Of a stretch of 64,000 nucleotides of DNA, positions 1,982 through 30,344 are shown piece by piece. The number at the start of each line of letters is the position of its first letter. The first letter of the stretch is position 1. The stretch covers positions 124,001 to 188,000 of the forward strand of contig NZ_QKYK01000001.1 in the NCBI RefSeq assembly GCF_003426815.1. Direction: 5' to 3'. The notes under the pieces were generated by a model. That model was not told the origin of the DNA. It was given only the letters and a program-made list of their open reading frames with translations, and made no database searches. Source of the stretch: Desertimonas flava. GTDB taxonomy: Bacteria > Actinomycetota > Acidimicrobiia > Acidimicrobiales > Ilumatobacteraceae. Both the position numbers and the translations under genes were made by a program.

Positions 1982-3736
1982 ATGACCGTGCTGCGCATCG
2001 CGCTGGCCCAGCTCAATCCGACCGTCGGCGACCTCGACGGCAACGTGGCCAAGATCCTGCTGGCCTACGACGACGCCGAGCAGGCCGGCTGCGACATCGT
2101 CGCCTTTCCCGAGCTGTCCATCACCGGCTACCCGCCCGAGGACCTCGTGCTGAAGCCGGCCTTCGTGGCCGACAACGAAGCGGCCCTCGCCCGGGTGGCC
2201 GCCCACACCGGTCGGTGCGCCGCGGTGGTCGGGTTCGTCGATGTCGACCACGACCTCTTCAACGCCGCGGCCGTGTGCGCCGACGGCCGGGTGCTCGGCA
2301 CCTACCGCAAACGCCTTCTCCCCAACTACGGCGTGTTCGACGAGGCCCGCTATTTCACACCCGGCAACGAGACCGATCCGCTCGAGCTGTACGTCATCGG
2401 CGGTGTGAAGGTCGGCGTGAGCATCTGCGAGGACGTGTGGAGCCCCGACGGACCCCTTGCCCTGCAGGCCGACGGCGGGGCCGAGTTGGCCGTCAACATC
2501 AACGCGTCGCCGTACCACTTCGGCAAGGCCGCCTACCGCGAGCGGATGCTGGCCACGAGGGCCGCCGATTCCCATTCGGCCCTCGTCTACGTCAACCAGG
2601 TGGGCGGTCAGGACGAGCTCGTCTTCGACGGTTGCTCGCTGGCCTTCGATGCGAACGGCGAGCTGATCGCCCGCGGCCGGCAGTTCCACGAGGAGCTGAT
2701 GATCGTCGACGTCCCCATCGCCGCCAGCTACCGCCAGCGATTGCTCGATCCGCGTGGTCGCGTGTCGCAGGTCGCCCTGCCGACCGTGCTGGTGTCGTCC
2801 GAGCCCGTGGAGCGCATCGACGACAACGGCGATGTCCCGTCGCACCCCGCCGCCAATCCGATCGCCGAGCCCCTGCCCGACATCGCCGAGCTCTACCAGG
2901 CGCTGGCCCTCGGGCTGCGGGACTACTGCCAGAAGAACGGATTCAGCGACGTCGTCATCGGGCTGTCGGGCGGGATCGACTCGACGATCGCCGCCGTGCT
3001 CGCCGCCGACGCCCTCGGAGCCGACCACGTGCACGGCGTGTCGATGCCGTCGCGGTACTCGTCGGACCACAGCCAGACCGACGCCGAGAAGCTGGCCGCC
3101 AACCTCGGCATCGACTATCGCACGATCCCCATCGAGCCGGCCTTCTCCGCCTACCTCGACATGCTCGCGCAGAGCTTCGTCGAGCCCGACGGCACGCCCC
3201 GTCCGCCCGGCCTGACCCAGGAGAACGTCCAGAGCCGCTGCCGCGGCCAGGTGTTGATGGCGCTGTCCAACGAGTTCGGATGGATGGTCGTCACCACCGG
3301 GAACAAGAGTGAGATGGCCGTCGGTTACTTCACGATCTACGGGGACTCGGTCGGCGGCTATGCGGTGATCCAGGACGTGCTGAAGACGCGGGTCTACGAC
3401 CTCTGCCGTTACGTCAACGAACGGGCGGGCCGGGAGTTGATCCCCGAGTCGGTCATCACCAAGCCGCCGTCGGCCGAGCTGCGTCCCGACCAGCGCGACG
3501 ACCAGAGCCTGCCGCCGTACGAGGAGCTCGACCCGATCCTGCGCCTCTACGTGGAGGAGGATCGGACGGCCGCCGAGATCGTCGAGCTGGGCTACGACGA
3601 GTCGGTGGTGCGGCGCATCACGCGCCTCGTCGACGTCGCGGAGTACAAGCGCCGGCAGTGCCCACCCGGCGTCAAGGTGACCACCAAGGGCTTCGGCCGC
3701 GACCGGCGGCTCCCCATCACCAACGGCTACAGCTGA
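1982..3736 (+). CDS. nadE: Glutamine-dependent NAD+ synthetase
   Basis: This is a two-domain enzyme. An N-terminal nitrilase-type glutaminase releases ammonia, and a C-terminal NAD synthetase amidates nicotinic acid adenine dinucleotide using ATP. The start codon here gives MTVLRIALAQLNPTVGD, typical of the family; an in-frame ATG-like start nine codons earlier (1955) is less likely. The glutaminase triad is visible as the Glu in FPELSITGY, Lys in RKRLLPNYG and Cys in VSICEDVW. The PP-loop SGGIDSTIAA begins the synthetase domain (about residue 330). At 584 residues it matches the shorter bacterial two-domain form. It appears monocistronic. Confidence 0.95.
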   Translation: MTVLRIALAQLNPTVGDLDGNVAKILLAYDDAEQAGCDIVAFPELSITGYPPEDLVLKPAFVADNEAALARVAAHTGRCAAVVGFVDVDHDLFNAAAVCADGRVLGTYRKRLLPNYGVFDEARYFTPGNETDPLELYVIGGVKVGVSICEDVWSPDGPLALQADGGAELAVNINASPYHFGKAAYRERMLATRAADSHSALVYVNQVGGQDELVFDGCSLAFDANGELIARGRQFHEELMIVDVPIAASYRQRLLDPRGRVSQVALPTVLVSSEPVERIDDNGDVPSHPAANPIAEPLPDIAELYQALALGLRDYCQKNGFSDVVIGLSGGIDSTIAAVLAADALGADHVHGVSMPSRYSSDHSQTDAEKLAANLGIDYRTIPIEPAFSAYLDMLAQSFVEPDGTPRPPGLTQENVQSRCRGQVLMALSNEFGWMVVTTGNKSEMAVGYFTIYGDSVGGYAVIQDVLKTRVYDLCRYVNERAGRELIPESVITKPPSAELRPDQRDDQSLPPYEELDPILRLYVEEDRTAAEIVELGYDESVVRRITRLVDVAEYKRRQCPPGVKVTTKGFGRDRRLPITNGYS

Positions 3737-4252: not shown

Positions 4253-4277
4253 ACGGTTGGTGCCAGGCACCAACCGT
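4253..4277. repeat. Perfect 25-bp palindrome, GGTGCCAGGCACC element, copy 1
   Basis: Two 12-base arms (ACGGTTGGTGCC and its reverse complement) flank a single A. It lies 17 bases beyond the stop of the leftward oxidoreductase gene, where a terminator would sit. Closely similar 25-mers occur at 20119-20143 (21/25 identical) and 30313-30337 (22/25). There is no T-run, so classical Rho-independent termination is not proven. Confidence 0.8.
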
Positions 4278-23601: not shown

Positions 23602-24474
23602 TCAGCCGACCTGGGCGATGACGTCGTCGCCGTAGCGGGCCAGGTCGGCGGCCGGGTCCTTCCAGAAGAGGAAGGCCGGCACGATCACCCTGTCGACGCC
23701 GAGGTCGGCGAGCGCGGCCACCTCGTCGAGCGCCCGCTCGCCGACGGCGCCGCGTCCGGCCGCGGTGAGCTCGATGGCGTCGGGATCGCGGCCGGCGTCG
23801 GTGGCGCTGGCCCGGACGACGTCGAACAGGCTGCGCAGCTCGTCGTGGTCCCCGCGGCCAGGAAAGAACCCGTCGCCGAGGCGGCCGGCGCGTCGAGCCG
23901 CGGCGACGCTGTGGCCGCCGACGTGGATGGGGATGGATCCCTGGGCCGGGCGGGGCCGCAGGATGCAGTCGGCGAAGTTCGTGAACGGGCTCTGATGCGT
24001 CGCCTTGTCCTGCGTCCACAGCGCCCGCAGGGCGGCGACGTGGTCGTCGGTGCGGGCGCCACGCTCGGAGAACGGCACGCCGATGGCGTCGAACTCCTCT
24101 TCCAGCCACCCGACGCCGATGCCGAGGTCGAGGCGGCCACCGGACATCGCGTCGAGCGTGGCCAGCTCCTTGGCCAGCACGACCGGGTTGCGCTGCGGGA
24201 GGATGAGGATGCCGGTCGCCAGGCGGATGCGCTCGGTGGCCGCGGCCACGAACGACAGCCACACCAGCGGGTCGGGGATCGGCGAGTCCTCGGGTCCGGG
24301 CATCTTGCCCGTCGGGCTGTACGGGTAGGCCGACTGGTAGCCCGACGGCACGATCACGTGCTCGACGGTCCACACCGACTCGAAGCCGGCGGCCTCAGCG
24401 GCCTGGACGAAAGCGGTCGCGCCCTTGGCGTCGGCGAAGGGACCGGTGTTGGCGAAGGCGATGCCGAACTTCAT
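23602..24474 (-). CDS. LLM-class F420-dependent oxidoreductase (TIGR03619-like)
   Basis: The 290-residue TIM-barrel flavin enzyme has the luciferase-like pattern MKFGIAFANTGPFAD, IRLATGILILPQRNPVVLAKELATLD and GRLDLGIGVGWLEEEF. Related actinobacterial proteins use reduced F420 to transform ketones, esters or sugars. No substrate-linked neighbour is visible. The repeat cluster at 24568-24703 lies in the region upstream of this start. Confidence 0.87.
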   Translation of the reverse strand: MKFGIAFANTGPFADAKGATAFVQAAEAAGFESVWTVEHVIVPSGYQSAYPYSPTGKMPGPEDSPIPDPLVWLSFVAAATERIRLATGILILPQRNPVVLAKELATLDAMSGGRLDLGIGVGWLEEEFDAIGVPFSERGARTDDHVAALRALWTQDKATHQSPFTNFADCILRPRPAQGSIPIHVGGHSVAAARRAGRLGDGFFPGRGDHDELRSLFDVVRASATDAGRDPDAIELTAAGRGAVGERALDEVAALADLGVDRVIVPAFLFWKDPAADLARYGDDVIAQVG

Positions 24475-24800
24475 CGTCGCGACGGTACGTGGTCAGCGTC
24501 GATCCGCCCGGATCGCGGGATCGACCGACCCCGGACCCCGGACTCTCGTGCCGGAGGCCGGGCCCGGAACGGGAGGGTATTTACCCACCGCGGCGTCCGG
24601 AGGGTATTCACCCACCGCGCGCGTGGGACCGGAGGGTATGTACCTGACCGAAGCGTCCGGCAAATACCCTCCGGTTCCGGAGGTGGGTAAATACCCTCCC
24701 GTTCGCAGGGGGCAGGGGAGGCCGAAACAGCCCGGGGGCCGACGCGAGCGCGACGCGTCGCGCCGGCACCCCGGACGCCTCGGACAGGGGTCTGGTGGGC
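24475..24800. other. 326-base intergenic stretch holding the repeat cluster
   Basis: It lies between two leftward genes (upstream of the LLM gene and downstream of the secreted-repeat gene). It contains no supported coding sequence. Long open frames here translate the repeats into Gly-Tyr-Pro periodic sequence and are treated as artefacts. The only structure seen is the repeat cluster at 24568-24703. Confidence 0.7.
24568..24703. repeat. Cluster of five GGAGGGTATTTACCC-type repeats
   Basis: Copies begin at 24568, 24597 and 24628 (direct) and at 24657 and 24682 (inverted). The outermost pair (24568-24589 and 24682-24703) are exact 22-base inverted repeats. Each full unit has an internal palindrome GGGTA-TT-TACCC. 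The units differ in the centre (TTTA, TTCA, TGTA). Spacing is 25-31 bases, irregular, so this is not a CRISPR. Confidence 0.85.
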
Positions 24801-25637
24801 TCAGTACCCGGAGTCCGTGGCCTTGGGCTCGCTGTCGGCAGGGGCAGCAGCGGCGCCCTCGGTGCCGGCCGGCATGGACTCGGCGGTGCCGGCGTCCATG
24901 CCGGCGTCCATGCCGACACCCGTGCCGTCGGGTGCGACGACCCACCAGACCTCGTTGACGGCCTGGCCGTTGAGGTCGCCGGGGGCCGTATCCGACGCGA
25001 AGTAGTACAGCGGGAAGTCGCCGACCTTCAGCATCGGGCCGAGCGGGTGGTCGACCACCGAGAACAGCGCCGGGTCGAGATCGGCGGCGAGCTCGGGAAC
25101 CTCACCGTTCTCCACGAGCGCCGGCGGCCAGGCGGTGGCGCAGCCGTCGAAGCAGGTGCTCTCGCCGTCGACGTCAGCCGTGAAGAGGTACAGAGCGCGG
25201 CAGTTGCCGTCGACGAGGATCGTGCCGAGCGAGGTCTCGGCCGTCTGGATCGGTCCGGGGATGAAGGCATCGGCCGGCGCGGCCGAGTCGGCGGCTGAGC
25301 CCGCAGCGGCCGTCTCCGCTGCAGCAGCGGTCTCGACAGCAGCAGCGGTCTCGGCGGCGGCGGTGTCGGGTGCCGCCATCGTTTCGGCGGTCGCAGTGTC
25401 GCCGGCCGGTGCGGCGGCGTCGCTGGTCGCGGGCGCGTCGAGCGGGAAGACCGTGGAGCAGTCGGTGCCCTCGGTTGTCGTACCTGCGGCTTCCGAACCG
25501 GCCGGCTCGGTGGGAGGGGCGGATGCGGATGCCGAGGCGGCGACGGGGATGGCGACGGCGAAGACGGCGGCGAAGACGGCGGCTCCGGTGGCCAGCCAGC
25601 GGCTCAGGCCTCCGTGACGTTGGCGGTGCGAGTGCAT
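24801..25637 (-). CDS. Exported protein with COG4315 secreted-repeat domain
   Basis: The 278-residue protein starts with a signal peptide (MHSHRQRHGGLSRWLATGAA, then a hydrophobic Ala/Val core). A long Ala/Thr/Glu-rich linker (about 40-115) follows. The folded part carries the COG4315 pattern: SLGTILVDGNCRALYLFTAD, CFDGCATAWPPAL and PLYYFASDTAPGDLNGQ. It has no lipobox Cys, unlike many relatives. A Met/Asp-Ala repeat tail ends the protein. The ECF sigma gene diverges from it over 107 bases, a common association for envelope proteins under that sigma factor. Confidence 0.82.
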   Translation of the reverse strand: MHSHRQRHGGLSRWLATGAAVFAAVFAVAIPVAASASASAPPTEPAGSEAAGTTTEGTDCSTVFPLDAPATSDAAAPAGDTATAETMAAPDTAAAETAAAVETAAAAETAAAGSAADSAAPADAFIPGPIQTAETSLGTILVDGNCRALYLFTADVDGESTCFDGCATAWPPALVENGEVPELAADLDPALFSVVDHPLGPMLKVGDFPLYYFASDTAPGDLNGQAVNEVWWVVAPDGTGVGMDAGMDAGTAESMPAGTEGAAAAPADSEPKATDSGY

Positions 25638-30305: not shown

Positions 30306-30344
30306 CCGCGTTACGGAAGGTGCCAGGCACCATCCGTAACGCGG
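30306..30344. repeat. 39-base hairpin, GGTGCCAGGCACC family, copy 3
   Basis: Outer 12-base arms (CCGCGTTACGGA and reverse complement), an A:A mismatch, and an inner GGTGCC-A-GGCACC. The central 25 bases (30313-30337) match the copy at 4253 in 22 positions. It ends exactly at the stop of the leftward monooxygenase gene and sits 33 bases past the rightward gene, so it could terminate both. Confidence 0.85.

Follow-up and report, generated by a model that had tools for sequence, protein, structure and literature searches.

A genome-specific family of tagged palindromic units in Desertimonas flava that looks like a new lineage of mobile REP repeats

The cluster of five short palindromic units that lies between two leftward genes of Desertimonas flava probably belongs to a family of non-autonomous palindromic mini-elements of the REP/REPIN/BIME kind that is specific to this genome, and represents the largest composite form of that family. 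Taken as a whole, the family resembles the mobile REP repeats of other bacteria and appears to be a new lineage of them. The genome comprises 6,220,585 bases in 73 contigs, and the stretch of 64,000 nucleotides that was analysed around the cluster, referred to here as the window, corresponds to C1:124001-188000.

Anatomy of the window cluster

The cluster (24568-24703) consists of five tagged dyad units, three direct and two inverted, in a gap between leftward ORFs. Its parts and the neighbouring genes are as follows.

23602..24474, minus strand: neighbouring gene for a luciferase-like monooxygenase (PF00296), whose start lies ~97 bp from unit 1
24568..24589, plus strand: outer unit 1 (24572-24585), tagged AACG, which forms the left arm of the exact 22-bp inverted ends
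24599..24616, plus strand: unit 2 (24599-24612), GGAGGGTATTCACCCACC, 27 bp past unit 1
24631..24644, plus strand: unit 3, which forms arm B of the inner inverted pair (42 bp)
24645..24658, minus strand: 14-bp core separating the inner arms, reading GGACGCTTCGGTCA on the minus strand
24659..24672, minus strand: unit 4, reading GGAGGGTATTTGCC, which forms arm A of the same inner pair
24682..24703, minus strand: outer unit 5 (24686-24699), tagged AACG, which forms the right arm of the exact 22-bp inverted ends
24801..25637, minus strand: neighbouring gene for a protein with a secreted repeat of unknown function (PF03640), whose stop codon lies ~101 bp from unit 5

An earlier, sequence-only reading of the window had placed the cluster in a 326-base gap between two leftward genes and had given it exact 22-base inverted ends. 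Both statements are correct: the gap extends over 24475-24800 between the ORFs at 23602-24474 and 24801-25637, and AACGGGAGGGTATTTACCCACC at 24568-24589 is the reverse complement of 24682-24703. The end arms lengthen to 42 bases at 88% identity. That reading was slightly too generous about the units themselves. Four of its five copies of the pattern GGAGGGTAT-NN-ACC are exact and unit 4 has one mismatch, while the internal palindrome GGTA-NN-TACC ascribed to every unit has one deviating base in units 2 and 4; units 1, 3 and 5 show it in perfect form.

When up to two mismatches are allowed, the unit pattern has nine matches in the window against 2.87 expected, and none of 100 shuffles attained nine, so that the cluster stands beyond chance. 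Seven of the nine loose matches fall within it, two of these seven being opposite-strand palindrome echoes of units 1 and 5. The cluster had been described as resembling neither a CRISPR nor an insertion-sequence end, and nothing that we observed favours either. A structured-RNA reading was tried and rejected, the only Rfam matches being far under the gathering scores.

A dispersed family in the genome

The exact unit GGAGGGTATNNACC occurs 26 times in the genome and its reversed-pattern control not at all. Strict inverted pairs of 42 bp, defined as GGAGGGTA and its inverse at a distance of 24-30 bases, number 40 (control 0), and their commonest form is GGAGGGTAAATACC-GGACGCTTCGGTGG-GGTATTTACCCTCC. 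The two units of a 42-bp pair are offset by 28 bp, and this inverted doublet is the main unit of the family. With the window cluster as the query and E values up to 10, 96 matches were returned, the query itself included, many of them weak or overlapping; the best of the other places has 87% identity over 145 bases. The short word GGAGGGTA by itself was found 136 times against 61 in the control, roughly a twofold excess, and the unit at two mismatches 435 times against 171, roughly two and a half-fold; lone loose matches therefore mean little.

Copies without shared flanks range from a bare 42-bp pair up to clusters, among which 14, with that of the window, contain three to five units; those with five are the window cluster, C10:96552 and C41:11162. 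The guess that the cluster might be part of a second dispersed repeat family has thus been borne out, by the 40 strict pairs and the 13 further clusters of three to five units in the same genome. A local duplication peculiar to the window site, which the three direct copies at 27- and 32-bp spacing might by themselves suggest, has next to no chance of being the explanation. It was to be preferred had the genome held no other copy and had sister strains shown no conservation, and it is refuted by the copies that do exist (26 exact units and 40 strict pairs); spacing and orientation were also compared elsewhere, and the geometry of the window recurs at unrelated loci such as C10:96552 and C41:11162.

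Kept and free bases

The unit consensus is R(A/T)C(C/G)-GGAGGGTA-NN-TACC, with the tag directly before GGAG. Most composites carry additional units at a distance of 27 bp beyond arm A and of 31/32 bp beyond arm B, a rule that does not hold exactly in L058, L070, L078, L080 and L081. Pairwise identity among the composites amounts to 94% and 91% in the outer units and 96-97% in the inner arms minus their centre, figures that are inflated because the rows were chosen by their likeness to the units. It is 83% in the core between the arms, 61% and 55% in the spacers, 47% in the flanks, and 27% and 25% in the central dinucleotide of the inner arms; these figures come from 8 of 12 composites for one side and from 5 of 12 for the other. 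Neither the core nor the inner central dinucleotide played a part in the choice of rows, and the contrast between them (83% versus 27%) consequently holds independently.

Units that are kept around a free centre are not what would be expected from the decay of neutral copies, and we read them as a sign that each unit is recognized. The central dinucleotide is alike in both arms of 17 of 50 pairs, as compared with 14.05 in shuffled pairs (sd 2.25, p 0.14). The arm centres of the pairs do not covary, therefore, and there is no sign of selection for a long stem.

A short tag marks both ends of the element. Over 38 outer ends from 19 copies, position -4 is R in 37 of 38, position -3 is A in 29 or T in 9, position -2 is C in 37 of 38 and position -1 is C or G; outward of the tag no position exceeds 0.34 bits, and conservation stops. 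(These counts were made after removal of L067 and L073; before it there were 42 ends from 21 copies.)

Placement relative to genes

The placement of the family was assessed on 20 copies without shared flanks, using genes called in this analysis. Eight of the copies lie between convergent genes, nine between tandem genes and none between divergent genes; two are inside genes and one is at a contig edge. Overlaps with genes at L046, L075 and L080 were judged to be start-codon artefacts, and these copies are counted as tandem. Five were left out for the company they keep, namely L083 and L084, with remnants of a longer element (see below) alongside, L067 and L073, both convergent, with sequence of that element alongside, and L079:6303-6428, whose flanks are those of the longer element; L072 and L079 were retained, having matches of only 12-17 bases to it. 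In the window, convergent and divergent gaps number 10 each and tandem gaps 27. Against this small background, eight convergent to zero divergent copies would be an unlikely outcome at even odds (0.5^8, or ~0.004).

Seventeen of the 20 copies are intergenic, and 15 of these have a stop codon at a distance of 12-57 bp; the other two are the window copy (~101 bp) and L072 (~90 bp). It might accordingly be asked whether the inverted pairs act as transcription terminators in both directions or as stabilizers of mRNA 3' ends, the more so as the whole window cluster, computed as DNA, folds far better than shuffles on both strands (z -8.5 and -9.2). We consider this improbable. The arms show no covariation (17 of 50 equal versus 14.05), no T-run was seen by eye beside them, and each unit is conserved by itself.

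The proteins encoded next to the copies are of mixed function among the 20 scanned of 47 listed, and include UvrD, Ku and LigD-type repair proteins. At L058:2959-3069 a LigD-type gene and a Ku gene stand on either side of a four-unit cluster, in which one of the spacings measures 42 bp rather than 32. The gene adjoining another four-unit cluster (L061:26-2893) encodes a UvrD-type helicase that contains Hint and weak intein-splicing matches at residues ~278-436.

A longer dispersed element that carries pairs

At 21 loci a pair is found in or beside a longer dispersed element with conserved flanks and ends of the TGCC(A/T)GG type. The element is 315 bp long in L047 (~2914-3228), the sole copy measured from end to end. 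It holds one or more 42-bp pairs, often two at a distance of 84 bp, and several copies look shortened on the right; L067 and L073 carry remnants of it. Such an association at about 20 loci, together with inverted ends (22 bp in the window cluster) and a non-coding interior, would be in keeping with a conventional MITE, that is, with the ends of a lost insertion sequence that was moved by a DDE transposase and produced a target duplication. This origin is nevertheless very improbable, since 42-bp pairs also occur without the longer element, as does the window copy, which lacks its flanks; the flanking sequence is little conserved past the tag; and the tags are inverted rather than direct.

Copies inside coding genes

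The two intragenic copies are both in frame. One is located between an AtuA domain and an AtuA ferredoxin-like domain. The length of the linker varies among the aligned homologues, and we have therefore rejected this copy as proof of mobility and take it to indicate in-frame tolerance only. The other is a three-unit copy, 69 bp from the first to the last unit base, in a gene that matches the NCBIfam model for error-prone DNA polymerase with 1436.9 bits (cut-off 939) and that we take to be dnaE2/ImuC. Of 40 other genomes of the family that were searched, 29 gave the locus and were aligned, and the insert is missing in all 29; 23 of these have a short linker with ~22 residues less, and six have a different, longer linker.

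In one of the six relatives (G026, locus L110) the same dnaE2 linker contains, in frame, an inverted repeat of 20 bp that is perfect but of other sequence. The remaining five long linkers have arms of only 5-7 bases. Relatives from four other genera have longer linkers of other sequence at this place. REPs within the DnaE2 genes of other bacteria are reported by Di Nocera and colleagues (PMC3733652). The genome of D. flava has a second match to the DNA polymerase III alpha subunit (C72:208786-210327), which contains one TAG and one TAA and is possibly an assembly or boundary effect.

Search for a mobilizing enzyme and a second palindrome family

Two RAYT-like genes for Y1 transposases (PF01797) are present in the genome, on contigs C72 and C8, and both match the NCBI model for REP-associated tyrosine transposases below its cut-off (52 bits versus 80). 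The C72 gene has AGTGCC(A/T)GGCACT palindromes on either side. Downstream of the C8 gene stands a complete GGTGCCTGGCACC palindrome; upstream, where the contig extends for 121 bp, there is a single 17-base arm of it. GGAGGGTA was not found in the 7.0 and 6.0 kb around the two genes (121 bp on the upstream side of the C8 gene). As they are flanked by GTGCC(A/T)GGCAC palindromes with no GGAGGGTA nearby, the two genes were rejected as direct partners of the units.

The C8 type of palindrome, GGTGCC(A/T)GGCACC, occurs at 82 places in the genome (control 0). Two of them are in the window, at 4259-4271 and 30319-30331 (C1:128259 and C1:154319), and represent a separate REP-like family in the same stretch of DNA.

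No transposase was recognized among 20 scanned of the 47 neighbours of copies, among 11 scanned of the 14 genes between neighbouring elements (L058, L078 and L079), or among 10 scanned of the 42 neighbours at the loci with the longer element. An HxlR-type regulator was found between elements (L079:3384-4037), and the 10 scanned neighbours of the longer element included one TetR-type regulator and one DinB-type polymerase. IS110-type transposases gave four matches in the genome.

Occurrence in other genomes

Pattern searches did not find the strict pair in 199 other members of the family, nor a relaxed pair in 396 other genomes of the order; a second genome of the genus was not encountered in them. 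A near-strict pair had no match in viral contigs, and in a scan of 84,980 species, which perhaps did not include the near relatives of this genome, it gave two single matches in unrelated metagenome-assembled genomes. A blastn search with the window cluster returned nothing from phages and nothing from plasmids. In the literature on such repeats, mostly other than subscription papers and queried by terms other than the word itself, we met no description of a GGAGGGTA family.

Possible recognition of the units by a protein

The units might be double-stranded sites for an architectural or regulatory DNA-binding protein of the host and be kept for that function rather than for mobility. As in a dimer site, the centre is random and independent between the arms and the bases on either side are nearly fixed, and the spacings are kept while the sequence of the spacers drifts. 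The positions of the copies argue otherwise: they lie at the 3' ends of genes, in none of 20 cases between divergent genes, and twice within coding genes; the functions of their neighbours (20 of 47 scanned) are mixed, though UvrD, Ku and LigD-type repair proteins are present; and no pair was found in the relatives searched. On balance we regard this explanation as unlikely. Placement 3' of genes also speaks against a classical operator, and a transcription-factor operator array was not apparent, since the sites are not upstream of a coherent set of genes (20 of 47 neighbours scanned). The search brought up no candidate for a protein that binds the units. The earlier suggestion of a multi-site protein-binding region does fit the random central dinucleotide, and binding of a protein to the units is plausible.

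Comparison with known repeats

The family agrees with REPs in general in having many dispersed copies of a short palindromic unit (40 strict pairs and 26 exact units), mostly intergenic near 3' ends in convergent or tandem contexts; published REPs are placed similarly (PMC3733652). Because it shows these general features but neither a GTAG nor a CGTC tag, and because no link to a RAYT was found around the two RAYT-like genes, we regard it as REP-like and as lying outside the GTAG and CGTC classes.

With the REPINs and GTAG REPs that accompany RAYTs in Pseudomonas fluorescens and E. coli it shares short tagged palindromic units, inverted pairs and higher clusters, extragenic location at the 3' ends of genes, and specificity for a genome or species. 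GTAG REPs are defined by a hairpin with the tetranucleotide GT(A/G)G at its foot (PMC6006769). The tag in the present family is RACS/GTCC and not GTAG/GTGG, each side of the core dyad has only 4-5 bp, and no RAYT gene flanked by the units was found. Its single unit, unlike REPs with long stems, folds weakly as one strand, with energies (-2.8 and -3.4 kcal/mol) that do not surpass those of shuffles. The core between the arms of a pair is largely kept; for REPIN spacers a lower conservation is reported (PMC3116915).

The CGTC-tagged REPs (Di Nocera 2013) are described as having no dedicated transposase (PMC3733652), and they resemble the GGAGGGTA family in this respect as well as in their mainly inverted dimers, their 3'-end placement and some intragenic copies. 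They are defined there by CGTC at one end and a stem of 8-9 bp that begins with A/T pairs; here the unit end has no CGTC tag, and A/T pairs are not found at the beginning of the stem. By description, the Rickettsia palindromic elements and other intragenic REPs offer a parallel for insertion in frame, replication and repair genes included (PMC3733652), from which the present family differs in having only two intragenic copies.

The multi-unit clusters, with their regular spacings and both orientations, are reminiscent of the E. coli BIMEs. BIMEs are mosaic clusters of several palindromic units; the clusters described here are built from one family, with up to five units. Their sequence is unlike that of the E. 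coli REPs tabulated in PMC2817692.

Proposed mechanism and significance

Based on these comparisons, we infer that the units are or have been mobile, in the manner of REPINs and BIMEs; neither a target duplication nor an excision was observed. The working unit would be the tagged dyad R(A/T)C(C/G)-GGAGGGTA-NN-TACC, and the basic element of 42 bp would consist of two inverted units around a largely kept 14-bp core, to which further units may be added at 27- and 31/32-bp steps to give composites of up to five. Each tagged dyad would be recognized separately by a protein, with copies spreading as pairs or arrays and persisting mainly where promoters and reading frames stay unbroken. Both RAYT-like genes stand beside other palindromes, and the mobilizer of the units may therefore have been lost, be missing from the assembly or act in trans.

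The GGAGGGTA family would add another tag type beside the CGTC REPs, one in which the kept and the free bases of the unit can be read directly. The two RAYT-like genes with their other palindromes provide an internal comparison within the same genome, and the dnaE2 copy, together with the palindrome of other sequence that a second genus carries at this linker, makes the reported occurrence of repeats in repair genes testable across one family. A more far-reaching proposal, which we put forward as doubtful, is that the short tagged dyads are double-stranded sites for a lineage-specific protein, with inverted pairs and arrays as its substrate and without long hairpins or recognition of the HUH/RAYT type, and that unrelated palindromes have repeatedly landed in the linker of the error-prone polymerase in this bacterial family.
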